Assembly (NCBI RefSeq): GCF_022170785.1
Contig: NZ_CP081870.1
Location: 608,001 to 672,000 of the forward strand
Origin: Rossellomorea marisflavi
GTDB taxonomy: Bacteria; Bacillota; Bacilli; Bacillales; Bacillaceae_B
DNA: 64,000 nt
Direction of reading: 5' to 3'
The notes beneath the pieces are model-generated. The model was not told the origin of the DNA. It was given only the letters and a program-made list of their open reading frames with translations, and searched no databases. This document shows, piece by piece, positions 17,648 to 64,000 of this stretch. The number at the start of each line of letters is the position of its first letter. The stretch's first letter is position 1. The position numbers and the translations under genes were made by a program.

Positions 17648-17775
17648 CGTTCCGTTCCGCTGCGGGAGCCCGCTTTCCACGGGGCTTGCGTTGAGCCTCC
17701 TCATTCTTGCGGGGTCTCACCCTGCGCGCTATTCCCGTAGGAGTCGGACTCCCTCCGCTACACTTCACTCTGTGA
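17648..17775 (+). repeat. GC-rich hairpin element, copy 3
   Basis: The arms are GGGAGCCCG (17664-17672) and CGGACTCCC (17745-17753), with one mismatch. The scaffold is CTTTCCACGGGG, GAGCCTCCTCATTC, GCGGGGTCTCACC and GTAGGAGTC. Confidence 0.8.
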
Positions 17776-17870
17776 TAGGGGAGGGGCTATGAGGTTCATG
17801 ATTCAGTGGAGATGAATCCACCTACTTGTTTGTGTAGAGCCAATGACAAATGATCATATGCAACGTGGGT

Positions 17871-18000
17871 CGTTCCGTTCCGCTGCGGGAGTCCGCTTTC
17901 CACGGGGCTTACGTTGAGCCTCCTCATTCTTGTGGGGTCTCACCCTGCGCGCTATTCCCGTAGGAGTCGGACTCCCTCCGCTGCACTTCACTCTGTGGTA
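17871..18000 (+). repeat. GC-rich hairpin element, copy 4
   Basis: The arms GGGAGTCCG (17887-17895) and CGGACTCCC (17968-17976) pair perfectly. Otherwise it is nearly identical to copy 3. Confidence 0.82.
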
Positions 18001-18097
18001 GGGGAGGGGGCTAAGGGGTTCATGATTTAGTGGAGATGGATCCACCTACTTGTTTGTGTAGAGCCAATGACAAAAGATGATATGTTGCAACGTGGGT

Positions 18098-18226
18098 CGT
18101 TTCGTTCCGCTGCGGGAGTCCGCTTTCCACGGGGCTTGCGTTGAGCCTCCTCATACTTGCGGGGTCTCAACCTGCGCGCTATTCCCGTTGGAGTCGGACT
18201 CCCTCCGCTGCACTTCACTCTGTGAT
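18098..18226 (+). repeat. GC-rich hairpin element, copy 5
   Basis: The arms GGGAGTCCG (18114-18122) and CGGACTCCC (18195-18203) pair perfectly. It is the last member of the tandem array. Confidence 0.82.
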
Positions 18227-43101: not shown

Positions 43102-43222
43102 CGTTCCGTTTCGCTGCGGGTGGTCGCTTTCCGCGGGTCGGTCGATGAGCCTCCTCGTGCCTGCGGGGTCTCATCTTCCCGACTATCCGCAGGAGTCGAC
43201 CACCCTCCGCTACACTGCACTG
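43102..43222 (+). repeat. GC-rich hairpin element, copy 8
   Basis: The arms GGGTGGTCG (43118-43126) and CGACCACCC (43197-43205) pair perfectly. The scaffold is CTTTCCGCGGGTCGG, GAGCCTCCTCGTGCCTGC, GGGGTCTCATC and GCAGGAGT. It is the first of three tandem units with a period of about 203 bp. Confidence 0.82.
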
Positions 43223-43304
43223 TTGGATGGTTGAAGGGGTAGGGCAAATCAGCAAAGTATGTCCTTCCCTTCATTTTTTGATGGATGTGTCGTGAGAAAT
43301 GGAT

Positions 43305-43428
43305 CGTTCCGTTTCTCTGGGGATGGTCGCTTTCCGCGGGTCGGTCGATGAGCCTCCTCGTGCCTGCGGGGTCTCATCTTCCCGACTATCCGCAGGAGTC
43401 GACCGCCCTTCGCTGCACTGCACTGTTG
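43305..43428 (+). repeat. GC-rich hairpin element, copy 9
   Basis: The arms GGATGGTCG (43321-43329) and CGACCGCCC (43400-43408) pair with one wobble and one mismatch. Confidence 0.78.
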
Positions 43429-52908: not shown

Positions 52909-54816
52909 TCATGAACGAAGCAATCGCAACCCGTTCAGGATCACCAGGATGGTGCTACCTTCATGCCCGATGACTCCATATGGGAGATCGAGGACTTGAA
53001 GGAAATTGGACGCGATGAGGAGCATGATGACAGAAATCGAGAAGACGACGTTCTGCTGGACGATACGCTTCATGCGCTTTGACAGCTTGATGGCTTCTGC
53101 GATCCGGGTCAGATCGTTTTTCATCAGGACGACATCGGCTGTCTCCAAGGCGACATCTGTTCCTTCACCCATTGCGATTCCGACGTTGGCTGTGGCAAGG
53201 GCAGGCGCGTCGTTGATTCCGTCACCGACCATGGCGACGGTCCCGAAGTCCTGTTTCAGAAGCTTGAGTTCATCCACCTTGGTTTCAGGAAGGCATTCAG
53301 CAATGAAAGATGAGACGCCTGATTCCTGTGCAATGGCACGGGCGGTCTTCTCATTATCCCCGGTGAGCATGATCGTTTCAACGCCTTCATCGGCAAGGAG
53401 CTTCAGGGCGTCAACGGTTTCCTTTCGTACAACGTCCTTCAACGCGATGAGGGCGATGATGACACCGTCACGCTCGACGAATACCGTCGTCTTTCCTTCA
53501 GAAGCCAAGATTTCATACCTGCCATCCATGAAAGCTGATGCAGCGGTGCCCATGAAATCGGCCTTTCCGATCTTCCAATCAGAGCCGTCCATGACGGCCT
53601 TGACTCCCCACCCCGAGATGTCTTCAAGAGAATCGGGTTGGGCAAGTTGGATCCCTTCGCTGCGGGCGTGCTTGACGATGGCCTGGGCGAGGGGGTGATT
53701 CGACTGATTCTCGATAGAAGCAACCACTTGAAGGGTCTTTGCTTCATCTTCAGAAGTCAGGAAGTCTGTGACAACCGGTTTGCCTCTTGTCAATGTCCCA
53801 GTCTTGTCGAAAGCGATGGCTTTCAAGTTACTCAGGTTTTCCAGATGTGCTCCGCCTTTGAAAAGGATTCCGTGGCGTGCCCCGTTGGAGATGGCAGAGA
53901 GGCTCGCCGGCATGATCGACGCCACTAGGGCACACGGTGAAGCGACGACAAGGAGCACCATGGCACGGTAGAAGGTTTCATTCCAGCTCCACCCCAATGC
54001 GAAGTGGGGAAGGAACATCATCAGCACTACGACGGCAAGGACAATCTTGACATAGGTCCCTTCAAACCGTTCAATGAACAATTGGGAAGGGGACTTTTCC
54101 GACTGGGCCGATTGGACGAGATCGATGATCTTTTGGAACAGGGTCTCGCTGCTCGGTTTTGTCATTTTGACCGTGATGGCCCCGTTGATGTTCACGGTTC
54201 CGGCATATACTTCATCATCCGCTGACTTGGTGACAGGGACCGCTTCTCCAGAAATGGCTGCTTCATCGATAGAGGTGCTGCCTTTTACGACCATCCCGTC
54301 CGTCGGTACACGCTCGCCTGGTTTGATGAGGATCAGGTCACCGATATCAAGGGAGCTGACCTGCACTTTCTTCTCACCGGTCTCCGTTATGAGCCATGCC
54401 TCTTCAGGCTGAAGCTCCATGAGGGCTGAGATTTCCTTTTGGCTCTTGTTCATCGTGTACGTTTCCAGGGCTCCGCTCACGGCGAAGATGAAGATCAGGA
54501 TCGCGCCTTCAGTCCAGTAGCCGATGATGGCCGAGCCGACGGCAGCGAAAATCATGAGCATCTCCACATTCAATTCTTTGTTTTCGATCGTCTCCTCGAT
54601 GCCTTCCTTCGCTTTAGCGAAACCACCGATGAAGAATGCAAGAAGATAAAAGATGATGCTCAAGGAGGACTCATCCTTCGAGAAGAGCCAGCCGAGGAGA
54701 ATGAAGACCCCGCTGACAAGGGCGGCAATCAGTTCGGCGTGGGGTTTGATTTTTTCAAGAAGTGGGAGCTTGCTACCGGGACTCCCGAGACTTAGCGCTT
54801 TGGACTGTGAACTCAT
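52909..54816 (-). CDS. zosA: P1B-type zinc-transporting ATPase ZosA
   Basis: A 635-residue heavy-metal P-type ATPase. It lacks an N-terminal metal-binding domain and matches the length of B. subtilis ZosA (637), which imports zinc during peroxide stress. The transmembrane metal motif is SPC in LVVASPCALVASI (near residue 305). The phosphorylation site is FDKTGTLTRGKP (near 350), the actuator SGEAVPV and the hinge GDGINDAPAL. ATG 54816 has GGAGGAGG upstream; the longer frame is not used. A perfect PerR box about 155 bp upstream supports peroxide control and this name over CadA. A second dyad TTCTCAATGAGAA near 54860-54872 may be another metal-regulator site. Confidence 0.9.
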   Translation of the reverse strand: MSSQSKALSLGSPGSKLPLLEKIKPHAELIAALVSGVFILLGWLFSKDESSLSIIFYLLAFFIGGFAKAKEGIEETIENKELNVEMLMIFAAVGSAIIGYWTEGAILIFIFAVSGALETYTMNKSQKEISALMELQPEEAWLITETGEKKVQVSSLDIGDLILIKPGERVPTDGMVVKGSTSIDEAAISGEAVPVTKSADDEVYAGTVNINGAITVKMTKPSSETLFQKIIDLVQSAQSEKSPSQLFIERFEGTYVKIVLAVVVLMMFLPHFALGWSWNETFYRAMVLLVVASPCALVASIMPASLSAISNGARHGILFKGGAHLENLSNLKAIAFDKTGTLTRGKPVVTDFLTSEDEAKTLQVVASIENQSNHPLAQAIVKHARSEGIQLAQPDSLEDISGWGVKAVMDGSDWKIGKADFMGTAASAFMDGRYEILASEGKTTVFVERDGVIIALIALKDVVRKETVDALKLLADEGVETIMLTGDNEKTARAIAQESGVSSFIAECLPETKVDELKLLKQDFGTVAMVGDGINDAPALATANVGIAMGEGTDVALETADVVLMKNDLTRIAEAIKLSKRMKRIVQQNVVFSISVIMLLIASNFLQVLDLPYGVIGHEGSTILVILNGLRLLRS

Positions 54817-54971
54817 AGTGGATTCCTCCTCCAATGTGATGGAACTAATTGATAAAGAATGGTTCTCAATGAGAATAATAATCAACATCAGTACCCTTAT
54901 AAAACGACGAAAGCTGCCACCGGATAGGATGACAGCAAATCTATTGAGATCCAAACTTTCAAATCAGTAAT

Positions 54972-55028: not shown

Positions 55029-56213
55029 CTAGTATTTTTCTGCTATTTCCCTTCGCCTCGTTTGAAGGGAAAAAGTCACAAGACTGATGAAGATGACAAG
55101 CAGCATGGTGGCAATCATATAGAAGAAACTAGATCCTTCAAGCTTCTCGATCGTCACTCCACCTATGAACGGACCGATCATGCTCCCGAAGCTGAAGAAG
55201 ATCCCGCACATGATATTGCCCGCTGGCAGAAGCTCTTTCGGCAGGAGGTCGGTCATATAGCTGATCCCGAGGGAGAAGGTCGATCCGACGGCCATCCCGG
55301 CAAGGGCGAAGCAGGTGAAGAGGCCGATGGTGGAATGGGAAACGAATCCCGCCGCCGTGAAACAGCCGGTCCCGATGATCATCACGACAATCAAAACACT
55401 CTGCCTTCCGATCCTGTCACTCAGGATCCCGAGGGGGAGCTGTGATAAGATGCTCCCCGCCGCAAAAGCAGGAAGAAGGACCGCCACGGCATCCACGGAT
55501 ATCCCGTTCCTTAGGGCGAAAATGGGGAAGTTCCCATTCAATGATGCTTCAAGGAACCCATATCCGAGGGGAGGCAATAGGGCTACCCATGCGTATCGAA
55601 GGACTTTCCCGAACCGGCGGAATGATCCGACGAAGGTGGCGTCCCCCATATTCTCTGTTTCGGGGAATTCATTCTTCAGCTTGAAGACGAAGCCCCAGAC
55701 GATAAGCGTCATGACGGAAGAGATGATGAACGGAAGCGCCTCATGAACGGCGAGAAGCTGGGTCATGAGCGGCCCGACGGTGAAGCCGATCCCGAAGGAC
55801 AGCCCGTAGATGGAGATATTGCGACCCCTGTGTTCCTTTGGTGAAAACGACGTGATCCAGGTTTGTGTCGCAAAGTGAAGCATATGATCCCCCACCCCGA
55901 TGCAGAGTCGGAGGAAGAACCAGAACCAGAAGGTCTTCCATATAGGGAAAAGAAGCATGGCGGCGGCCACAGTGATGCCGCCGATGATGATCATGGGACG
56001 ATACCCGATCTTCTGAAGGGGCTTTTCCATGAGAGGGGAAGCAATAAGGATCCCGATATACAACGCAGTGGCATTCAATCCATTCAAGGAAGAAGACACG
56101 CCGTCCTGTTCAAATATGATGGCGATCAAGGGCAGGAGCATCCCCTGCGAGAATCCCGAAATCGACACGATGGCCACAAGGACCCAGAAGCGAAATGATA
56201 ATTGTTTATTCAT
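55029..56213 (-). CDS. MFS transporter
   Basis: A 394-residue permease with twelve transmembrane segments, starting MNKQLSFRFWVLVAIVSISG. The loop 2-3 motif is degenerate (PLMEKPLQKIGYRPMIIIGG, about 57-76), while the loop 8-9 copy is LGILSDRIGRQSVLI. It belongs to the YfkF-like drug/metabolite efflux branch by general appearance. ATG 56213 has GGAG nine bases upstream, and a GTG two codons earlier is the alternative. It lies upstream of zosA in the same direction. It is about 600 bp from, and divergent to, the RiPP cluster, so a link to peptide export is possible but unsupported. Confidence 0.82.
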   Translation of the reverse strand: MNKQLSFRFWVLVAIVSISGFSQGMLLPLIAIIFEQDGVSSSLNGLNATALYIGILIASPLMEKPLQKIGYRPMIIIGGITVAAAMLLFPIWKTFWFWFFLRLCIGVGDHMLHFATQTWITSFSPKEHRGRNISIYGLSFGIGFTVGPLMTQLLAVHEALPFIISSVMTLIVWGFVFKLKNEFPETENMGDATFVGSFRRFGKVLRYAWVALLPPLGYGFLEASLNGNFPIFALRNGISVDAVAVLLPAFAAGSILSQLPLGILSDRIGRQSVLIVVMIIGTGCFTAAGFVSHSTIGLFTCFALAGMAVGSTFSLGISYMTDLLPKELLPAGNIMCGIFFSFGSMIGPFIGGVTIEKLEGSSFFYMIATMLLVIFISLVTFSLQTRRREIAEKY

Positions 56214-56821
56214 ATGCACGGACTCCAGTCTATGTTGGTTATTCTTAGATGGTAACGGGTTCCCTTCATTTTGGCAATATGAGGATGAACCATTTGTCAG
56301 GGTTTAGGACATATGATCGAAAAAGGATTGGAAAAGGAAGAAGGTAAGAAAAAAAGCGGTGACTTACATAAAAAAATATCATTATAGTAGAAAAGTTAAA
56401 TAATAGATCATGAGGTAATCGAACCCTGTAAATAGTGGGGGATAGAATTTAATGATGAAATTAATATTATTCCTGAAAGAATATTTTTCATTATATATAA
56501 GTGGGTCAGGGGAACTAGTATTAGGAGGGGGTACGGATCACTGCAAAAATGTTCTCATGTTCAAAGGTTGTTCCATCACACAACAAAGGAGTTGCAGATC
56601 TATTTCTAGTCATTTGGATGTGTTGATTCATTCGGACTAGATAGCGGTATTTTCAATATATCTTTCTCATTTTGGATGAGAGGTGAAGGGAAGAAAAATG
56701 GGTGCTATGCAGGTATAGTTATTGTTAAACAATTCAGAAAGGTTAATAAAATTCAACTAGAATCCTTTATTAACAGTGTGGTAATATTTTCATGATTCCA
56801 AGGGAAGGGAGGGAAAAGGTC

Positions 56822-57016
56822 ATGAGTAATGGGACATTGAACAGTGTGGAGTCCTTGCTTCAGGAAATCGAATCGATTGAAGTGATGGAAGTATCAGAGT
56901 CCATGATGCTGTCTGAAACCGGGGCGACGAGTGGGTCGAGCTCATCGGGAAGTACGTCATGCTGCGGATCATGTTCATGTGTAAGCTGTGGTGCCTGCAC
57001 CAGCTGTGGAGGCTAA
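56822..57016 (+). CDS. RiPP precursor peptide 1, Ser/Cys-rich core
   Basis: A 64-residue ribosomal precursor. The leader (about 1-35) is acidic and helical, with SLLQEIESIEVMEVSESMML, the likely docking site for modification enzymes. It is followed by SETGATSGSSSSG and the core STSCCGSCSCVSCGACTSCG-G with seven Cys. Such Ser/Thr/Cys-dense tails are substrates for YcaO cyclodehydration (thiazoles, oxazoles) and LanB dehydration, both encoded downstream. Counting the core from SCCG, serines fall at positions 1 and 10, the spacing used for the central pyridine in 26-membered thiopeptides; this is suggestive only. The 56220-56821 gap before it has no convincing gene. Confidence 0.9.
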   Translation: MSNGTLNSVESLLQEIESIEVMEVSESMMLSETGATSGSSSSGSTSCCGSCSCVSCGACTSCGG

Positions 57017-57039
57017 AATCGATCGGGGGAGGAAATGAA

Positions 57040-57231
57040 ATGATAAAGGCGGCAAATAACGAAGTAGCAGACTTGCTTCAAGAGATCGAATCTATCGAGG
57101 TCATGGAAGTGTCAGAATCCATGATGCTATCAGAAACTGGTGCGACTAGTGGATCCAGTTCATCAGGAAGTACATCATGCTGCGGATCATGTTCTTGCGT
57201 GAGCTGTGGCGGTTGTACAAGCTGCGGATAA
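57040..57231 (+). CDS. RiPP precursor peptide 2
   Basis: A 63-residue paralogue of precursor 1. It has a different first dozen residues (MIKAANNEVADL), then the same LLQEIESIEVMEVSESMML leader helix and the core ending VSCGGCTSCG (Gly for Ala, one terminal Gly fewer). ATG 57040 follows GGGGAGG at seven bases. Codons differ from precursor 1 at many third positions while the peptide is conserved, which suggests selection on the product. Confidence 0.9.
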   Translation: MIKAANNEVADLLQEIESIEVMEVSESMMLSETGATSGSSSSGSTSCCGSCSCVSCGGCTSCG

Positions 57232-57255
57232 CGAATTCTGAAGAATCGGGGACTA

Positions 57256-57447
57256 ATGATGACTACTAATCTTAAAATCGAATCCTTATTAGAAGAAATA
57301 GAGTCCATCGAAGTGATGGAAGTATCAGAATCGATGATGTTATCAGAAACAGGGGCTACTAGTGGGTCCAGTTCATCAGGAAGTACGTCATGCTGCGGAT
57401 CATGTTCATGTGTCAGCTGTGGCGCTTGCGTAAGCTGCGGCGGTTGA
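57256..57447 (+). CDS. RiPP precursor peptide 3
   Basis: A 63-residue paralogue (62 if the second ATG at 57259 is used). The leader reads KIESLLEEIESIEVMEVSES and the core ends VSCGACVSCGG, with Val in place of the Thr/Ser-like residue of the others. GGGGA precedes the start. It is the last precursor before a terminator hairpin that separates the peptide genes from the enzyme genes. Confidence 0.9.
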   Translation: MMTTNLKIESLLEEIESIEVMEVSESMMLSETGATSGSSSSGSTSCCGSCSCVSCGACVSCGG

Positions 57448-57454
57448 TGCAATG

Positions 57455-57485
57455 AAGGGGGACCGGTTTTCCGGTCTCCTTTTAC
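57455..57485 (+). terminator. Attenuating terminator between precursors and RiPP enzymes
   Basis: GGGGGACCGG and CCGGTCTCC pair with a TTTT loop, followed by TTTTA. Partial read-through here would give more precursor than enzyme transcript. Confidence 0.75.
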
Positions 57486-57626
57486 CCCAAATCAAGTCGT
57501 TTGAAACCGGGACTTACCTCCTGAATGTTGGAATTTATTCCGAAACGATAGAAGGGCACCCAATAGTTTGTTACGATTCAAGTAGTTTGAATTTACAGAA
57601 AATACATATGGAGTGTGGTATACAAA

Positions 57627-60089
57627 ATGCTCTTCCCGTGGTACTTGATCAGAGAAAACACGTTATCCTACAGCGATTTCGCACCACTCCGTTCCACTGA
57701 ACTCGTTGATTTTGTCACTGAATCCCATTTGCACCTGGAGTCGTTCCAGCGCATGAAGGATGAAGTGGTGGCGGCACTTGAAGTCGACTTTCACGAAACA
57801 AAAGATCCCTCCCTCCTGAATGTGAAGCGGAAGGTCTTCAATCGGAAAGGCCTCAAGGAGGAAGAAGCCGTGACGGACGCCTTGGAGGAATACCGTCTGG
57901 TACGCGACTTCATCGAAGAAGATCGTGCTGCCGGTGAAGCGCTTTTCCATGCAACCGAGGCCAGTCACCGTCAACATCTGTGGACCCTCTTCAAAGAAAA
58001 GCCGGTCGTGACGAATCCGCTGCCCTTGGTGAATCATCAGATGCATCACAAGCTCGATAAGTTCCTGTCCACCCCGCCGGATACGCACAAATCAAAGGTG
58101 AAAAAAATCGATAGCACACTGCTTCGGATCGCCTCCCGTTCCACCTTCAAAACCAGTCCGTTCAGCTCATTCACCAGTATCGACCTGAAATCATTCACAC
58201 CCCAACCAGAAGCTCCTGCACCCCAATATCAGATTGAATTGAATTATTACATATGGCAAAAAATCCTTCAGCTCATTGCCAACGATCCCGCCTTCATCCC
58301 TTATCTTACGTACCTCTACTCCGGTAGGCATGAAGATGGAATCGTGGATTTCACTTCCCGGATCGACTTGAACCGGGGGAAAATCTTTAACAACATCGAA
58401 AACCATTTTATCGCGAAGGACAATCCGATCTTCTCGGCCCTCTCCAACTTCAATCGTCCCATCGCTTACAAAGAAGTCCTCTCCCTCCTTGAGCCTTTCA
58501 CTTCAGAGGAGAAGGCGGAACGCTTCTTTGTTGATGGCCTTCTGAAGAAAGGGATTCTGTATGCCGATTTTGAACTCGATGAGTACGCAAAGGATGTACG
58601 CGGGGATTTTTACAAGAAGCTCGGCTCCCTACCTGAACACCATAAGATCAAGCTTGTCGTCGAGACGATGGAAGCGATCGACGGCCTGGTGGATGAATAT
58701 AGGCGATCAGGGTGGAAGGAACGCTTCGGGATCTATTCCAAGATCATGGGCCGTCTTGCAAGGATCGAGGAATCCTTTGGTTATACGTTCACGAAAGAAA
58801 ATCTATTCTATGAGGACTATCTGGCACCCGCTAGCACCGATCTTGAACTGTCTGAATCCTTCATCCGTGAGATCGGCATCATTCAGAAGCTTGCCATTCT
58901 GACGAGTATCCCGCTTCAGTTCAAGTATGAGTTCGCCCATAGGTTCCACCAACGCTACAAAGGTAAGTCCATGGCCGTCAGGAAAAAAGAAGTGCGCGAC
59001 TTGTATATGGAAGAAGTGATGAAATTCACGAATTGGACCGATATTTTGGCGGGTGTACCCGATTTGAAATCACCTGGCGGACAGGTGATGGAGGAGATCA
59101 AGGGGGAGATCCGGGACCTTTTCCAAAAAGCAAAGCATGGGGACGGCCGACTCATCGGAGATGAAATCCTAGCTCTGTACGATTCATTCATGGAGCGGAC
59201 CGGATTTAGCAAAGAACATCTCTCATCTACAGCACTCTTCCAGAAAACAGAGGACGGCTATATTCTGAACAAGCTGTATGCGGGTCATATGAAGCTGTTC
59301 ACCCGCTATTTCCAATACAGCCCGTCGATCTATGGAGATTCCCGTTTCAAGGAATATGTCGCACAGATGTGCCCGGATGTCCTTGAGATACGCGAGGGAT
59401 TCGGATTCAACGCGAATCGGCATGAGACGTTCCTGAACCAACGTCTCCTCATTCCGGGAAGCAAGACGAATCCAGCCGATGAAACGGCCCACTGGAGTAA
59501 TGATCTTCACTATCGTTACAACGAAGAGAGTGGGCTCATAGAGATTGTCGGAGAGGATGGCCCGCTTGAGATTGACTATATCGGAAGTCTTGTCGACTAT
59601 ATGATGCCCCCGAGCATCCGGATGCTTTCGACGGGGCTGACGCCGAGGTTCGATCCCGGTCTGGTGAAACTTTGGGAAATCCATGAGGAAACCCGGCCTG
59701 TGATCGATCACATCCCAAGGCTCCATCTTGGACATCTGGTGATCATGAGGGAGAAATGGCTACTTGATACGTCACACTTCCTGCAGGAGGAAGAGGTGTA
59801 CGATCTTTACCGGAAGACGGTCACCCGCTTCAAGGAGCTCGGGTTGCCCCTTGAATTCTTCGTGAGCCGCATTGTGGACGCAGAGACCTACGACTTTGAT
59901 AAATCGAATCGATCGGATATGAAACCTCAGTATATGAATCTATTATCCCCCTTGTTTTTCAAAGAGTGGGTCAAGCTTCTGAAGGAAGAATCAAGATTGG
60001 TTGTGGAGGAGCTTTATCCGGCAGGCGGGGGCGAAAATCATAACATAGAATACCAGGTGGAGGTGAGCATGGATGAAAAGCCTGAATGA
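57627..60089 (+). CDS. LanB-type dehydratase, N-terminal glutamylation-domain protein
   Basis: An 820-residue protein of the Lant_dehydr_N family. Family landmarks include RIASRSTFKTSPFSSFTSID near residue 168, ADFELDEYAKDVRG and, in the C-terminal third, MMPPSIRMLSTGLTPRFDP and RLHLGHLVIMREKWLL. In thiopeptide and goadsporin pathways the split N-terminal protein transfers glutamate from Glu-tRNA to Ser/Thr of the precursor, and a separate protein eliminates it to leave dehydroalanine. That division is seen here, because the next gene encodes the elimination part. The start is uncertain: ATG 57627 has GGAG about 12 bases upstream, and GTG 57615 is the alternative. It overlaps the next gene by 17 bp. 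Confidence 0.88.
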   Translation: MLFPWYLIRENTLSYSDFAPLRSTELVDFVTESHLHLESFQRMKDEVVAALEVDFHETKDPSLLNVKRKVFNRKGLKEEEAVTDALEEYRLVRDFIEEDRAAGEALFHATEASHRQHLWTLFKEKPVVTNPLPLVNHQMHHKLDKFLSTPPDTHKSKVKKIDSTLLRIASRSTFKTSPFSSFTSIDLKSFTPQPEAPAPQYQIELNYYIWQKILQLIANDPAFIPYLTYLYSGRHEDGIVDFTSRIDLNRGKIFNNIENHFIAKDNPIFSALSNFNRPIAYKEVLSLLEPFTSEEKAERFFVDGLLKKGILYADFELDEYAKDVRGDFYKKLGSLPEHHKIKLVVETMEAIDGLVDEYRRSGWKERFGIYSKIMGRLARIEESFGYTFTKENLFYEDYLAPASTDLELSESFIREIGIIQKLAILTSIPLQFKYEFAHRFHQRYKGKSMAVRKKEVRDLYMEEVMKFTNWTDILAGVPDLKSPGGQVMEEIKGEIRDLFQKAKHGDGRLIGDEILALYDSFMERTGFSKEHLSSTALFQKTEDGYILNKLYAGHMKLFTRYFQYSPSIYGDSRFKEYVAQMCPDVLEIREGFGFNANRHETFLNQRLLIPGSKTNPADETAHWSNDLHYRYNEESGLIEIVGEDGPLEIDYIGSLVDYMMPPSIRMLSTGLTPRFDPGLVKLWEIHEETRPVIDHIPRLHLGHLVIMREKWLLDTSHFLQEEEVYDLYRKTVTRFKELGLPLEFFVSRIVDAETYDFDKSNRSDMKPQYMNLLSPLFFKEWVKLLKEESRLVVEELYPAGGGENHNIEYQVEVSMDEKPE

Positions 60090-61164
60090 TTTGACGGAAA
60101 TCCGCTTGTTCTTCTTCGGGAGTGAGGAGCAGAAGGCGAAGGTGTATGTCGACTGGGTGATCCCTTACTTCATGGAACTCGGTGTCCCTTTCCATGCCGA
60201 GCGTGACTGGTTCGGGGGGCCGAACTATAGGATCGTGCTGGAGGGGGATGTGAACCTGGAAGACGTAAAGTCCCGTTTCCGTTCCCACTGCATGAGGGAA
60301 CATGGAGAAATCGACGAAGGGGAGATCCTTCGCAATCTGGCAGCCTATCAAAAGAACACGGCAGTGGTTGCAGGGATGGAGAGACGCGAGCATCGCGACG
60401 TGAGCCATCTGAATCATCTAGAGGTAGAAGCCGGCACCATCCCGGAGTCCTATGTGAAGAAGAGGTTCCACTCATTCCTTCACTTGAAGGTCCATACCGA
60501 AGCCCTATTCAAGATGCAATCCTTCATCAATCACCACCTGTCACAGTGGAGAGGGATGGATCAGACGGCGAAGATCAGCCATACCGCACGCTTCTTCAGG
60601 GATGTGCTCCCTTACTCGCGCTTCGAGGAAAAATACGCGGTTCTCGTATATGTATCCAATATCGAGGGGGTCCTCGCCATTGCTGAATCCATGAAGAAAA
60701 AGCAGGCATACATAAACACCTACGAGCGGGTGTACGACGTATTGAACCCCCGTGAGCTTTTTGCAGGAAAGGACTACGAAGAAGCATTCGGCATGGATTG
60801 GAGAGTGACGATCGGAAGCATCGACTCCTTGATCACGGCCAATCTTGAAGGTCTGGCAGGCGAAGAGGAAGGCTATTATTCCCATCGGGAGCAGCGGGAG
60901 CTCCTTTATCAAAACATCCGAGAGATCGGGAGTGGATTCCATGATGAACTGATGGCGAGGAATATCGAGGGGCTCCTCGACCACGAGGAGCATGCCCGCT
61001 TCAAGTATTTGATCAACGTGGTCTATAAGTTCATCCATATGATCGGCGTCTCCTTCAATGAGAAAAACGTGGCCTGCTATATCGTGAGCCGGTTAATCCT
61101 TGAGGAAAACGGGACCACATGGGACGAGATCCTCAAAGAAAGGGGAGAGTCCTTTGTTCCTTAA
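60073..61164 (+). CDS. Thiopeptide-type elimination-domain protein (SpaB_C-like)
   Basis: A 363-residue protein of the lantibiotic dehydratase C-terminal / thiopeptide-type bacteriocin biosynthesis family. The opening LTEIRLFFFGSEEQKAKVYV, then VDWVIPYFMELGVPFHAERD and GPNYRIVLEGD, is the typical start of that domain. It would remove glutamate from glutamylated Ser/Thr to form dehydroamino acids. The related [4+2] cyclase of thiopeptides has the same fold, so one or the other role is possible from sequence alone. GGAGGTGAG precedes ATG 60073. It overlaps both neighbours. Confidence 0.83.
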   Translation: MKSLNDLTEIRLFFFGSEEQKAKVYVDWVIPYFMELGVPFHAERDWFGGPNYRIVLEGDVNLEDVKSRFRSHCMREHGEIDEGEILRNLAAYQKNTAVVAGMERREHRDVSHLNHLEVEAGTIPESYVKKRFHSFLHLKVHTEALFKMQSFINHHLSQWRGMDQTAKISHTARFFRDVLPYSRFEEKYAVLVYVSNIEGVLAIAESMKKKQAYINTYERVYDVLNPRELFAGKDYEEAFGMDWRVTIGSIDSLITANLEGLAGEEEGYYSHREQRELLYQNIREIGSGFHDELMARNIEGLLDHEEHARFKYLINVVYKFIHMIGVSFNEKNVACYIVSRLILEENGTTWDEILKERGESFVP

Positions 61165-62647
61165 AACGAGAACGAATTTCTTCCCGTCATTTGATGAGAG
61201 TTCAGATGTGCTTCATATCCAGAAGAATGACACGCTTCAGAAGGTGAGGATGGAAAAGGGGCTGTATGAAGAGTTCCTTGGGATCCTGGGGGAGTTCAAC
61301 GGTGGTTCCTCCGCAGATCTGGACGGGAAGTCCACAGACTATAAAAGGGTGCTCAAGTTCTGTCTCCACCAGGGGCTCCTTGATCAACCCTTGCACGACA
61401 ATGAGCCTTTCCTTCTTCGTTACGTGGAGAACGCCTATGATGACTACAGGACGGTGTGGGATAAGATCGTCTCGACCCCGGTCGATGTGATCGATGCGCC
61501 ACCATCCATTTTGGGGCTACTCAACGAAAACGATCTGCAGACAGGCGAAGGGGAAAAACGGACCATACGCTGGATCGATGGAATCGGTCTTGCAGACCCC
61601 GGGGATTTTGTCATTCTTCATGACAATGGTCATCATGCTTTCTTCATCCATGAGAATGAACGTGATCTTCAACTAGCTAAGGGTCTCGTACAGAGAGAGC
61701 GGAGCGGGGGTCCCTTGGAACTGGGAAAACGGGTTGCAGGTGTAAGGGCACTGGCGGAATGGGTCAAGCATATCGTGGATCCCCGTCGCAAGAAGCTCGT
61801 GACCGTGCTGTATGACACCGGTGAGTCTGCCGTTATGGGGAAAGAAGATGTCACCTCGACCCTCCCGCTGTATGAGAGGAAGTTCCTGGACGCGGATCCC
61901 GACCTTTCCTTCATCCAGAAGCTTGAAGGGCGGTGGACGAGCTTTCATTCCCTGGATGTGTCCATCAATGAGGGAGACCCGGAATTCCCCGTTCACCTCC
62001 ATGTGGCTCCGTATGAAATCCGGTTCCAGGACTTTACGCATCGAAGCATCGACTATGAGTATAAAGATGCGGCCATTCACGCCCTGACAAGGGGAATCGA
62101 AGGGTATCTGGGCAGCATCGATGACAGTGGGTGGGTAGCAGACTACTCAAAGGAGCGATTTTATATCAGGGGGATGATCCCTTTCCTCGGTAAGACAGGG
62201 GAATTCGTCGAACTTGCTGCGTTGCCGGCACGATATGAAGAGCGCATCGGTTCAATCTTGGCACAGACGGACTCGATCAATGAGATTGCGGTCATCCTCG
62301 AGACACTGTTCCGAGAAGATGTATTCGTCTTATACCTGGTCGACCAAGACCGCCGGGTGCTCTACAAAGGTACGGCGGAAATCGAGCTTGGCAGGGAACT
62401 GAGCCGGGCGCTTGCATGGGTGACCGGTCATCTGCTCAATGGTCTTGAAGTTTGTGAAGGGACGCTGGAAGGTTCATTTAGGGCCATCCCTTTCCCCCTT
62501 GAACAGAAGACTCCATCCGATATCCACGCAGAGCTGACCCGTGAGCTTTCGGACATCCCGATCACGGAATCGGCATGGATCTACCAGGGTGATGTGGAAG
62601 ATGCAGGGCTATATGTAGGAAAGTTTGAAAGGGGTGACGCAGGATGA
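61154..62647 (+). CDS. E1-like cyclodehydratase partner / RiPP-recognition protein
   Basis: A 497-residue protein. The N-terminus (LFLKTRTNFFPSFDESSDVL, then HIQKNDTLQKVRMEKGLYEE) resembles the RiPP-recognition element and first strand block of Ocin_ThiF/SagC-type partners that deliver precursor to YcaO. No ATP-binding GxGxxG is present. The central region has an odd YcaO-like piece, AAIHALTRGIEGYLGSI near residue 310. It lacks the CxxC zinc pair that such partners carry near the C-terminus; that pair is in the next gene. I place the start at TTG 61154, five to seven bases after AGGGGAG, overlapping the previous gene by 11 bp. Its stop overlaps the YcaO start as ATGA. Family assignment is moderate. 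Confidence 0.7.
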   Translation: MFLKTRTNFFPSFDESSDVLHIQKNDTLQKVRMEKGLYEEFLGILGEFNGGSSADLDGKSTDYKRVLKFCLHQGLLDQPLHDNEPFLLRYVENAYDDYRTVWDKIVSTPVDVIDAPPSILGLLNENDLQTGEGEKRTIRWIDGIGLADPGDFVILHDNGHHAFFIHENERDLQLAKGLVQRERSGGPLELGKRVAGVRALAEWVKHIVDPRRKKLVTVLYDTGESAVMGKEDVTSTLPLYERKFLDADPDLSFIQKLEGRWTSFHSLDVSINEGDPEFPVHLHVAPYEIRFQDFTHRSIDYEYKDAAIHALTRGIEGYLGSIDDSGWVADYSKERFYIRGMIPFLGKTGEFVELAALPARYEERIGSILAQTDSINEIAVILETLFREDVFVLYLVDQDRRVLYKGTAEIELGRELSRALAWVTGHLLNGLEVCEGTLEGSFRAIPFPLEQKTPSDIHAELTRELSDIPITESAWIYQGDVEDAGLYVGKFERGDAG

Positions 62648-64000
62648 CGGTCATGACTGAAACCGGGCTTCCCATCATGGACCGAAACAGCCATCTTTTC
62701 GTAGGGCCGTGGAAAAAGGAGCGCGGACACGCCTGCTTTACCTGCTTCACCTCATACCTTACCTCAAATGGAAGTAACCTTGCTTCGATCCTTGACCAAG
62801 AACTGAGAGGACCTGGTGAAAGGGATTGTGGGAACGATCTCCATGGATTGGATGTTCATTCATTCATCAATCGCGTCCTCGTCATCGATAAGCGGTCGTG
62901 GTCGGTGACTTGGAAGAAATTCCGCAAGAATCCGTTCTGTCCAGAGTGTGGGGTGGAATGGGAAGAAGAGCGGAAAACGGAGCTTCATCTGACAGACGAA
63001 CCCCATTTTAGGGTGAAATCAGGAAAAGAGATCTCCCAGCTTCTGAAACGGTATGAAGATGAACTGATTGATGCCGACACAGGAGTCGGAAGAGCACTCT
63101 TCCGCGATGCAGAATCGAATATCATCCCCATGTACGCCATCGAAGCGGTCATCCATGATCGGACGTTCTATTCATATGGGCGAACGACGGGGATCGCGGA
63201 ATCAAGGAATGCGGCCATCCTTGAGCTCCTTGAACGCTATTCAAGCATGGTCCCGAGATTCAAGGCACCCATCGTTGCCTCTTATGAAGAGCTTGTTGCA
63301 AATAATAAAAAGGTGGTGCCGCCCGGGCGTTACATTCTGCGGAGCCCCCTAGATCCCGACCGCAAGCTCCACTGGACGAGCTGCCGGGAAGTAGGGACGG
63401 GAGAGGCATTCTTGATACCGGAGCAGATGATGTACTTTGATAATCAGCTTCTGAGGGGTGAAACCCGCTTCCTATACGAGACGTCCAATGGGACTGCCCT
63501 TGGCGGGAGTGTGGAAGAGGCGTTGGTGTATGCGATCCTCGAGGCGGTGGAGCGGGATTGCTTCCTCGTCCACTGGTATACGAAGCGCCTTCCACGAATC
63601 ATTGATCAGGAAAGCCTGGCGAATCCCCATGTGAAAGGGATCCTCCGTACGCTTGATCAGCTCGGATACGAGACATACTTATTCGACATCACCCTCGAGA
63701 CAGAGGTCCCAGCCGTATGGGTCCTGCTCCGTAACACCGATGCAGATGGGCAGCTTCATCTCTACAATGCCGCAGGCTCACACTTCGATCCCGAAGCAGC
63801 GATTTTCGCGGCCCTTGTGGAAGCGGGTACCTCGGTCATCGTGTATGAAGAGAAGCTCCGAGCTGAAAAGCCGGGCCTCTCCCACCTGATCGGCAGCCCG
63901 GAAAACGTCACCCACATGGAGGATCACGTGAACTACTATGCCTTCAGGGAGAACAGCGGTGCATTCGACTATCTCTTCGATCGGATGGCCGATCTTGAGC
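62644..64000 (+). CDS. YcaO cyclodehydratase with N-terminal zinc module, 3' end outside window
   Basis: The first 452 codons are visible and the frame stays open to the window edge. Residues 1-140 hold two CxxC pairs, HACFTCF (Cys31/Cys34) and FCPECG (Cys99/Cys102), like the structural zinc site at the end of E1-like partners. From about residue 160 the YcaO fold follows, with TTGIAESRNAAILELLERYS and ALVYAILEAVERDCFLVHWY, the two acidic ATP/Mg-binding signatures. YcaO enzymes use ATP to convert Cys/Ser/Thr to azolines. ATG 62644 overlaps the stop of the partner gene. A dehydrogenase, exporter, protease or immunity gene may follow beyond the edge. Confidence 0.9.
   Translation, partial: MTVMTETGLPIMDRNSHLFVGPWKKERGHACFTCFTSYLTSNGSNLASILDQELRGPGERDCGNDLHGLDVHSFINRVLVIDKRSWSVTWKKFRKNPFCPECGVEWEEERKTELHLTDEPHFRVKSGKEISQLLKRYEDELIDADTGVGRALFRDAESNIIPMYAIEAVIHDRTFYSYGRTTGIAESRNAAILELLERYSSMVPRFKAPIVASYEELVANNKKVVPPGRYILRSPLDPDRKLHWTSCREVGTGEAFLIPEQMMYFDNQLLRGETRFLYETSNGTALGGSVEEALVYAILEAVERDCFLVHWYTKRLPRIIDQESLANPHVKGILRTLDQLGYETYLFDITLETEVPAVWVLLRNTDADGQLHLYNAAGSHFDPEAAIFAALVEAGTSVIVYEEKLRAEKPGLSHLIGSPENVTHMEDHVNYYAFRENSGAFDYLFDRMADLE

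Follow-up and report, generated by a model that had tools for sequence, protein, structure and literature searches.

We consider a stretch of 64,000 nucleotides (nt) from Rossellomorea marisflavi (contig NZ_CP081870.1; G000:C1:608001-672000 in our numbering), called the window below, and the peptide-modifying operon that begins near its end. The contig is read on past the window's edge as locus L002, where a position equals the window position minus 62000. Read in this way, the operon is intact, lies wholly on the forward strand with most of its genes overlapping, and spans 56822 to window-equivalent 69488, beyond the edge. We take the locus to be a complete thiopeptide biosynthetic operon and give the thiopeptide class a probability of about 0.85; the class together with the enzyme roles assigned below is nearly as probable. 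The parts of the operon are as follows, in gene order, with protein lengths in amino acids (aa).

56822-57016, forward strand: precursor 1, 64 aa; core from S1 of TSG, SGSSSSGSTSCCGSCSCVSCGACTSCGG; over the cut-offs of PF19409 and NF033400
57040-57231, forward strand: precursor 2, 63 aa; core SGSSSSGSTSCCGSCSCVSCGGCTSCG; over the NF033400 cut-off
57256-57447, forward strand: precursor 3, 63 aa, start at 57256 or 57259; core SGSSSSGSTSCCGSCSCVSCGACVSCGG; over the NF033400 cut-off
57453-57484, forward strand: strong RNA hairpin separating precursor and enzyme genes
57615-60089, forward strand: LanB N-terminal type protein (LanB-N), 824 aa; PF04738 at 42.1 bits, cut-off 28
60073-61164, forward strand: probable pyridine synthase ([4+2] cyclase), 363 aa; from distant homology and structure neighbours
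61100-62647, forward strand: 515-aa protein, start uncertain; without family match; directly before YcaO
62644 to window-equivalent 64269 (L002:2269), forward strand: YcaO cyclodehydratase, 541 aa; PF02624, E 8e-55
L002:2245-3459, forward strand: 404-aa protein; no family match of its own, relatives SagB-like
L002:3411-4310, forward strand: elimination protein (LanB-C); PF14028 and TIGR03891 over cut-off
L002:4307-5074, forward strand: SagB dehydrogenase; TIGR03605 over cut-off
L002:5071-6027, forward strand: 318-aa protein; without usable family match
L002:6021-6761, forward strand: ATP-binding cassette (ABC) ATPase; Pfam/NCBIfam cut-off exceeded
L002:6754-7488, forward strand: ABC-2 permease; Pfam/NCBIfam cut-off exceeded

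The three precursors are near-identical, stand in tandem and are rich in Ser and Cys. All three pass NF033400 (thiazolyl_B) at 34.7-35.2 bits against a curated cut-off of 30, and precursor 1, the only one run against Pfam, passes PF19409. The leader ends in ..SETGAT, and the core counted from S1 is 27-28 residues long. An earlier, sequence-only reading of the window had called this core longer than the known ones, and so it is: the structural peptides of known thiopeptides are put at 12-17 residues as of 2014 in the part of (PMC3917276) used here. In a sample of the class, NF033400 matches 12 of 398 genomes, 11 of them over the cut-off; the phylum sample gives 1 of 398, the genome under study itself, and the single match in the control genomes (B. 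subtilis) falls below the cut-off.

The same reading had proposed YcaO heterocyclisation combined with split LanB dehydration, and the matches to PF02624, PF04738, PF14028 and TIGR03891 bear this out. YcaO exceeds its Pfam cut-off; it also matches TIGR03604 (E 4.9e-54) and, over residues 76-124, TIGR03882, without reaching the curated cut-off of either. A frameshift in YcaO beyond the edge, named earlier as fatal to the proposal, is absent, since the gene ends intact at L002:2269 with 541 aa. The PF04738 match of LanB-N and the PF14028 match of LanB-C are each the sole one in the genome. By family cut-offs, the precursors, LanB-N and YcaO lie where they had been placed. The separate elimination protein had been put at 60073-61164, but the true LanB-C is found just past the edge (L002:3411-4310), and the 363-aa protein is probably not an elimination protein. 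The contig read past 64000, where an azoline dehydrogenase and an exporter had been suggested as things to look for, also yields SagB and the ABC pair.

Three proteins of the operon have no family of their own. The 515-aa open reading frame (ORF), earlier called an "E1-like partner", is indeed present, but the E1-like label is not confirmed. Pfam and NCBIfam give no usable match for the 515-aa and 318-aa proteins, with the relatives' proteins searched too, and no useful one between the 515-aa protein and the F-protein family (Ocin-ThiF-like). Its AlphaFold model is poor (mean predicted local distance difference test, pLDDT, of 40; strands then helices at residues 27-90) and was left out of the fold search. 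A phmmer search of the 363-aa and 515-aa proteins against solved structures gives nothing useful, and a PHROGs search with three operon proteins gives no match. Truncated thiopeptide YcaOs require a leader-binding partner, as stated in the relevant part of (PMC4603692); judging from position, the 515-aa and 318-aa proteins may include that of the present YcaO. For the 404-aa protein itself Pfam and NCBIfam give no match. The related proteins of L012, L013 and L023 hit SagB under its cut-off (E 9e-7 to 2e-5), and the 404-aa protein is probably a second, SagB-like dehydrogenase part.

We turn to the 363-aa protein, for which a [4+2] pyridine synthase is the most likely role predicted from homology and modelling, against the earlier statement that no clear [4+2] cyclase is seen before the edge. 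Its nearest solved structures are the pyridine synthases TbtD and PbtD of the thiomuracin and GE2270 pathways (tbt, pbt), the similarity being only distant; its structural neighbours rank cyclase first, and Y318 aligns in the column of PbtD Tyr293. A number of results weigh against this assignment. The protein reaches 26.3 bits against a cut-off of 325 for NF045556, the TbtD/PbtD equivalog, so we do not file it as such an equivalog. The profile of its own family misses PbtD and TbtD among solved structures, where the own-family profiles A1-A4 find no pyridine synthase and nothing convincing. Modelling gives a poor structure (mean pLDDT 55), Foldseek TM-scores are 0.29-0.40 by query length, and most of the Z alignments end near residue 262, before Y318. 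The bridging profile that ties the protein to cyclases contains clear TbtD relatives, to which it is 17-21% identical, and is therefore partly circular. LanB-C also matches NF045556 in its N-terminal part, and hhalign between the cyclase and LanB-C alignments yields an uninformative probability of 8%; from these two results we regard the elimination and cyclase folds as close. As this case shows, a cyclase may sit far below the curated cut-off of its family.

The gene set that marks a thiopeptide cluster is found here: the precursor type, YcaO with an azoline dehydrogenase, the split LanB, and a distant homologue of the [4+2] pyridine synthases with a predicted role. From these parts we infer the following route. 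The leader of the three precursors would recruit YcaO through the leader-binding partner, and the two would turn Cys, perhaps with some Ser or Thr, into azolines, which the SagB-type dehydrogenase would oxidise to azoles. LanB-N would glutamylate chosen Ser residues in a presumably tRNA-dependent reaction (Ser/Thr), and the separate LanB-C would eliminate the glutamate to leave dehydroalanines. The 363-aa pyridine synthase would then join two dehydroalanines, form the pyridine macrocycle, with the central six-membered nitrogen ring that defines the class, and expel the leader. For pyridine products from S1 with all seven Cys as thiazoles, the calculated masses are 2199.5, 2128.5 and 2197.5 Da for precursors 1-3, less any further multiples of 18.011. 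Export of the product, immunity, or both would fall to the ABC pair, which is better conserved than any other part of the operon; by analogy the predicted product would be exported and act against bacteria.

The operon can be compared with its relatives. In the comparison with R. marisflavi JCM 11544 (L011), none of the ten enzyme and transporter genes contains an internal stop, and the ratio of nonsynonymous to synonymous substitution rates (dN/dS) is 0-0.39; the row for precursor 1, off frame by one base, is left aside. Against genome G012 (L014), nine genes are stop-free at 0-0.45 and the cyclase gene is broken. A YcaO scan of named genomes gives JCM 11544, Bacillus sp. P14.5 and Bacillaceae bacterium Marseille-Q3522. 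The gene order is the same, with different neighbours, in P14.5, in Marseille-Q3522 (whose contig starts within LanB) and in G661; the ten-gene order is shared by R. marisflavi, P14.5 and a genome of another family. In P14.5, Marseille-Q3522 and G661 the enzymes and unassigned proteins are 30-64% identical to those of the window (cyclase 50-54, YcaO 57), and for both transporter parts the identity is 69-88%. The core TSGSSSSGSTSCCGSCSC[VI]SCG is unchanged in the window, JCM 11544, G012, P14.5 and G661. Variation is confined to the tail (ACTSCGG, GCTSCG, ACVSCGG, ACASCGG, and no more than S or GG in G661), which therefore seems dispensable. With dN/dS at 0-0.39, which shows selection, and a core almost unchanged where the enzymes have diverged so far, the operon is more than a chance arrangement. 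A search with the cyclase protein finds 4 of 36 genomes (G000, G011, G012, G019) of the family sample, which consisted of a single genus, and 3 of 397 of the order sample; profile A1, made for the cyclase, finds 8 of 398 genomes of the class sample, full-length in G000 and G661 only; and tblastn of the cyclase against plasmids finds none.

The product class had earlier been left open between a thiopeptide and a goadsporin-like peptide, and the cyclase homologue now supports the thiopeptide better. To our knowledge no product of the cluster is known, which counts against our reading, as does the lack of a second L11 or EF-Tu gene in the genome (one L11 and one EF-Tu over the cut-off). The weak cyclase scores of the 363-aa protein, the own-profile search that misses the pyridine synthases, and the fold shared by elimination and cyclase domains would all suit a linear azole/dehydroalanine peptide, goadsporin-like or other, with the 363-aa protein as a second elimination-type enzyme. 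The operon already holds a dedicated LanB-C with the genome's sole PF14028 match, however, the structural neighbours put cyclase first, and no protease stands among the operon genes with a family match (three proteins are unassigned), which is what leader release by the cyclase would predict. A linear peptide is thus unlikely. Goadsporin itself shares YcaO and the split LanB with this operon, and is described, in the part of (PMC4603692) that concerns it, without a [4+2] cyclase; a goadsporin-like class is disfavoured because the dedicated elimination protein lies just past the edge, and a goadsporin-like linear product is rejected with a distant [4+2] cyclase homologue present.

A product of the micrococcin P1/P2 kind might be thought of, because both have been reported from a "Bacillus marisflavi" strain (PMC8878052). 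The available main text of that report never uses the words "gene cluster", and the precursors here lack the micrococcin-type core SCTTCVCTCSCCTT, as carried by plasmid pBac115; the chance that the locus makes micrococcin is negligible, and with a differing precursor core we exclude it. Decay or silence of the cluster deserves more weight and is still improbable. In its favour, and against an active thiopeptide operon, the cyclase gene of G012 is split into two frames (L014, G012:C1:671012-672099), either a natural knock-out or a sequencing error. The P14.5 draft (L012:4818-9922) has its LanB-N match in three pieces and its 515-aa match in two, in different frames, so that this cluster looks damaged or misassembled, and the cyclase occurs in only 4 of the 36 genomes sampled. 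Set against this, the frames are open throughout in the operon under study, in JCM 11544, with its dN/dS of 0-0.39, and in G661.

The single L11 and EF-Tu genes lead us to reject self-resistance by target duplication, and any immunity that is required may come from the ABC pair. The thiocillin-type cluster of pBac115 differs here in carrying rplK (L11) beside it. Thiocillin and micrococcin P1 are likewise thiopeptides of Bacillota, and the T-C-S-C of the micrococcin-type core, which we take to surround the second ring Ser, resembles the S-C-S-C found here. They differ from the present operon in a core of 14 residues with a Cys after its Ser1; the cores here do not start with SCTTC, the mark of the thiocillin/micrococcin subgroup. 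Repeated precursor genes are shared with thiocillin (PMC5100339, in part). The lactazole A system (laz, Streptomyces lactacystinaeus) has in common a split YcaO system, a split LanB, a separate pyridine synthase, a Ser1 without a following Cys, a tolerant loop, and Ser-azole-Ser-Cys around the second ring Ser; it differs in its 32-membered ring and five essential enzymes, where the present cores have a longer loop, a Gly after Ser1 and 27-28 residues (parts of PMC7210931). The pyritides (MroA, Micromonospora rosaria) share a Ser1 followed by a change-sensitive Gly2 and a pyridine macrocycle made by split LanB and cyclase; in the text drawn on, they have no Cys and no azole genes, and rings of 14 and 17 members (PMC9247985).

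Closer still are the "thiazolylpeptide-type bacteriocin" clusters of Bacillota under NF033400, with the same precursor model, start, conserved block and NF045556-like cyclase. Relative to them, the present subfamily has a longer Cys tail, a divergent cyclase of its own, two SagB-like proteins and two unassigned partners. We compare 22 distinct cores. Three matches that start with SES (L023, L024/L048/L055, L026) are excluded as spurious, and the cores of G686 (three copies, one distinct from S1 on) and of S. salivarius are added separately. All 22 begin S1-G2 after [ST], and all 22 hold S-[TC]-C-[GA]-S-[CST]-S-C, where shuffling gives 0.07 of 22. For the 20-core alignment the search pattern itself demanded S1-G2 and the block, hence the invariance of those columns; the informative part is that all 20 cores fitted. 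Between start and block lie 7 residues in 18 cores, 8 in 2, and 4 in 2 (G686 and S. salivarius plasmid pSAL813). Core residues 3-9 and the tail vary across the wider family; S1 (of TSG), S10 and S16 are conserved, and S19 is not. An NF045556-like protein is present in 13 of 13 genomes (the 12 NF033400 genomes and G019), in a search at E up to 1 that also matched 4 of 14 control genomes, and none reaches the cut-off of 325. It lies on the precursor contig in 12 of the 13 and on a separate contig in G497; G581 gave one core, yet is outside the 13.

Some of these loci were seen more closely. L024, L025 and L034 (G566, G516, G558) have NF045556-like cyclases at 262-277 bits (cut-off 325) and 3-4 tandem precursors each, and are thiopeptide clusters in other Bacillota families. 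Plasmid pSAL813 (L066:2724-4135, L028) carries seven tandem precursors with the single core SGSGGSSTCGSTSCSSCSSSCA, which have the start and the block and belong to NF033400 by annotated name. Its thiopeptide-type operon has two YcaO genes, an M20-type hydrolase and a 365-aa "hypothetical protein" that matches the pyridine synthase model (E 8.6e-6).

The next question is which Ser residues the pyridine would join. Lactazole requires its Ser1 and Ser10-Ser11-Ser12-Cys13 to mature efficiently, while its loop tolerates change, and the pattern surrounding the second Ser is what pyridine synthases recognise (PMC7210931, in part). The equivalent pattern here is S1 and S14-[CST]15-S16-C17. By this analogy we tentatively propose that the pyridine closes S1 with S16 (within S14-C15-S16-C17); the Ser that releases the leader is probably S1 of TSG, and the second ring Ser is more probably S16 than S10. 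The formula 3n-4 gives the ring sizes stated for lactazole (32 members at n 12) and for the pyritides (14 at n 6, 17 at n 7), so an S1-S16 ring would be 44-membered here. For the whole NF033400 family the proposal, just as tentative, is that the pyridine would link S1 (in the S-G start) with the Ser of S-[CST]-S-C, in rings of 44 members, 47 in two cores, and 35 in the two short-loop ones. Known rings are stated to be 26-35, with engineered lactazoles up to 62 (PMC7210931, in part). If the proposal is true, rings of this family exceed the stated range, with a variable Ser-rich loop clamped on a conserved azole block. Three points detract from it: the motif [ST][CST]SC alone is in 22 of 22 cores with 12.6 expected on shuffling, being common in Ser-rich cores; the compared cores are related and not independent; and within the own subfamily S10 fits the azole-dehydroalanine-thiazole motif as well.

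That last point favours a 26-membered ring from S1 (TSG) to S10 (TSCCG), nearly free of azoles and with a long polyazole tail, since S8-T9-S10-C11 of the subfamily has this pattern. All 22 distinct cores have both Ser, with a spacing of nine in 18; position 9 holds Cys, Ser or Thr in 21; and 26 is a known ring size (PMC3917276, in part). Yet two members would need 29 and two (G686, S. salivarius) 17, residue 11 is Thr and not Cys in 15 of 22 cores, and the most conserved stretch (10-17) would become the tail around a more variable ring; we consider this closure less probable than that at S16. More doubtful still is the 26-membered ring of the sequence-only reading, between the Ser of TSCCG (its Ser1, counted from SCCG; S10 of the family) and the Ser of VSCG (its Ser10; S19). 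The spacing is right, a Cys follows both Ser, and S19 is retained in G661 and P14.5. All 6 distinct cores of the subfamily, however, have Val or Ile ahead of the second Ser, which is not conserved across the wider family, and its use would leave the invariant S1-G2 without a role. Thiopeptide ring size is said to track the target, 26 for the ribosome/L11 and 29 for EF-Tu (PMC3917276, in part). If the S1-S16 closure holds, this family of Bacillota, whose cores have 20-28 residues and start with S-G, would form a new structural class with a possible ring of 35-47 members.

The kind of cluster is already known, as Pfam and NCBIfam model the precursor family. Within the literature searched, which left out most subscription journals and all supplements, the product has no characterisation, none of six core strings is printed, and no product is found for the NF033400 clusters of Bacillota. 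In the part of (PMC13186505) used, antiSMASH flags a thiopeptide-LAP (linear azole-containing peptide) cluster in Rossellomorea sp. H39_3, a strain stated to have the same 16S as R. marisflavi; it is probably the same cluster. The proposal of a new structural class can be tested directly, since the cluster is complete and intact and its host can be cultured.

The hairpin at 57453-57484 is strong (z -4.4; 0 of 200 shuffles as good) and was not scored as a terminator in the motif scan. Its counterparts have z -6.4 in P14.5 (L012), where the sequence differs and the strength is similar, z -3.3 in L011, and a weak z -1.9 (12 of 200) in L023. We infer that it is possibly an attenuator, or a stabiliser favouring precursor over enzyme message. 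Promoter patterns upstream of the operon do not rise above chance (2 found, 3.9 expected). Two ORFs lie upstream:

55029-56219, opposite strand: major facilitator superfamily transporter
52909-54954, opposite strand: P-type-ATPase-like ORF, named by eye

On plasmids, tblastn finds LanB-C in 27 records and YcaO in 138, each below 60% identity. Sutcliffiella horikoshii plasmid pBH-BAT-167 (L029) has an operon of LanB, LanB-C, YcaO and a LanC-type protein adjoining a divergent ileS, which might, at a guess, encode a self-resistance synthetase. On the 3' side of the operon of the window, a stretch of about 1.4 kb, in which repeats lie and no gene is recognised, is followed by an ORF for another transporter-like protein. 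The repeats (L002:7555-8655, window-equivalent 69555-70655) form two direct-repeat pairs of 132 nt and 161 nt, 94-95% identical, which carry mutual inverted-repeat ends. The repeat motif CGCTTTCCGCGGGG, with one mismatch allowed, occurs five times in the window (17671-18134, 43125-43341) where 0.03 is expected, and these copies together with the repeats look like a family of repeated intergenic elements.

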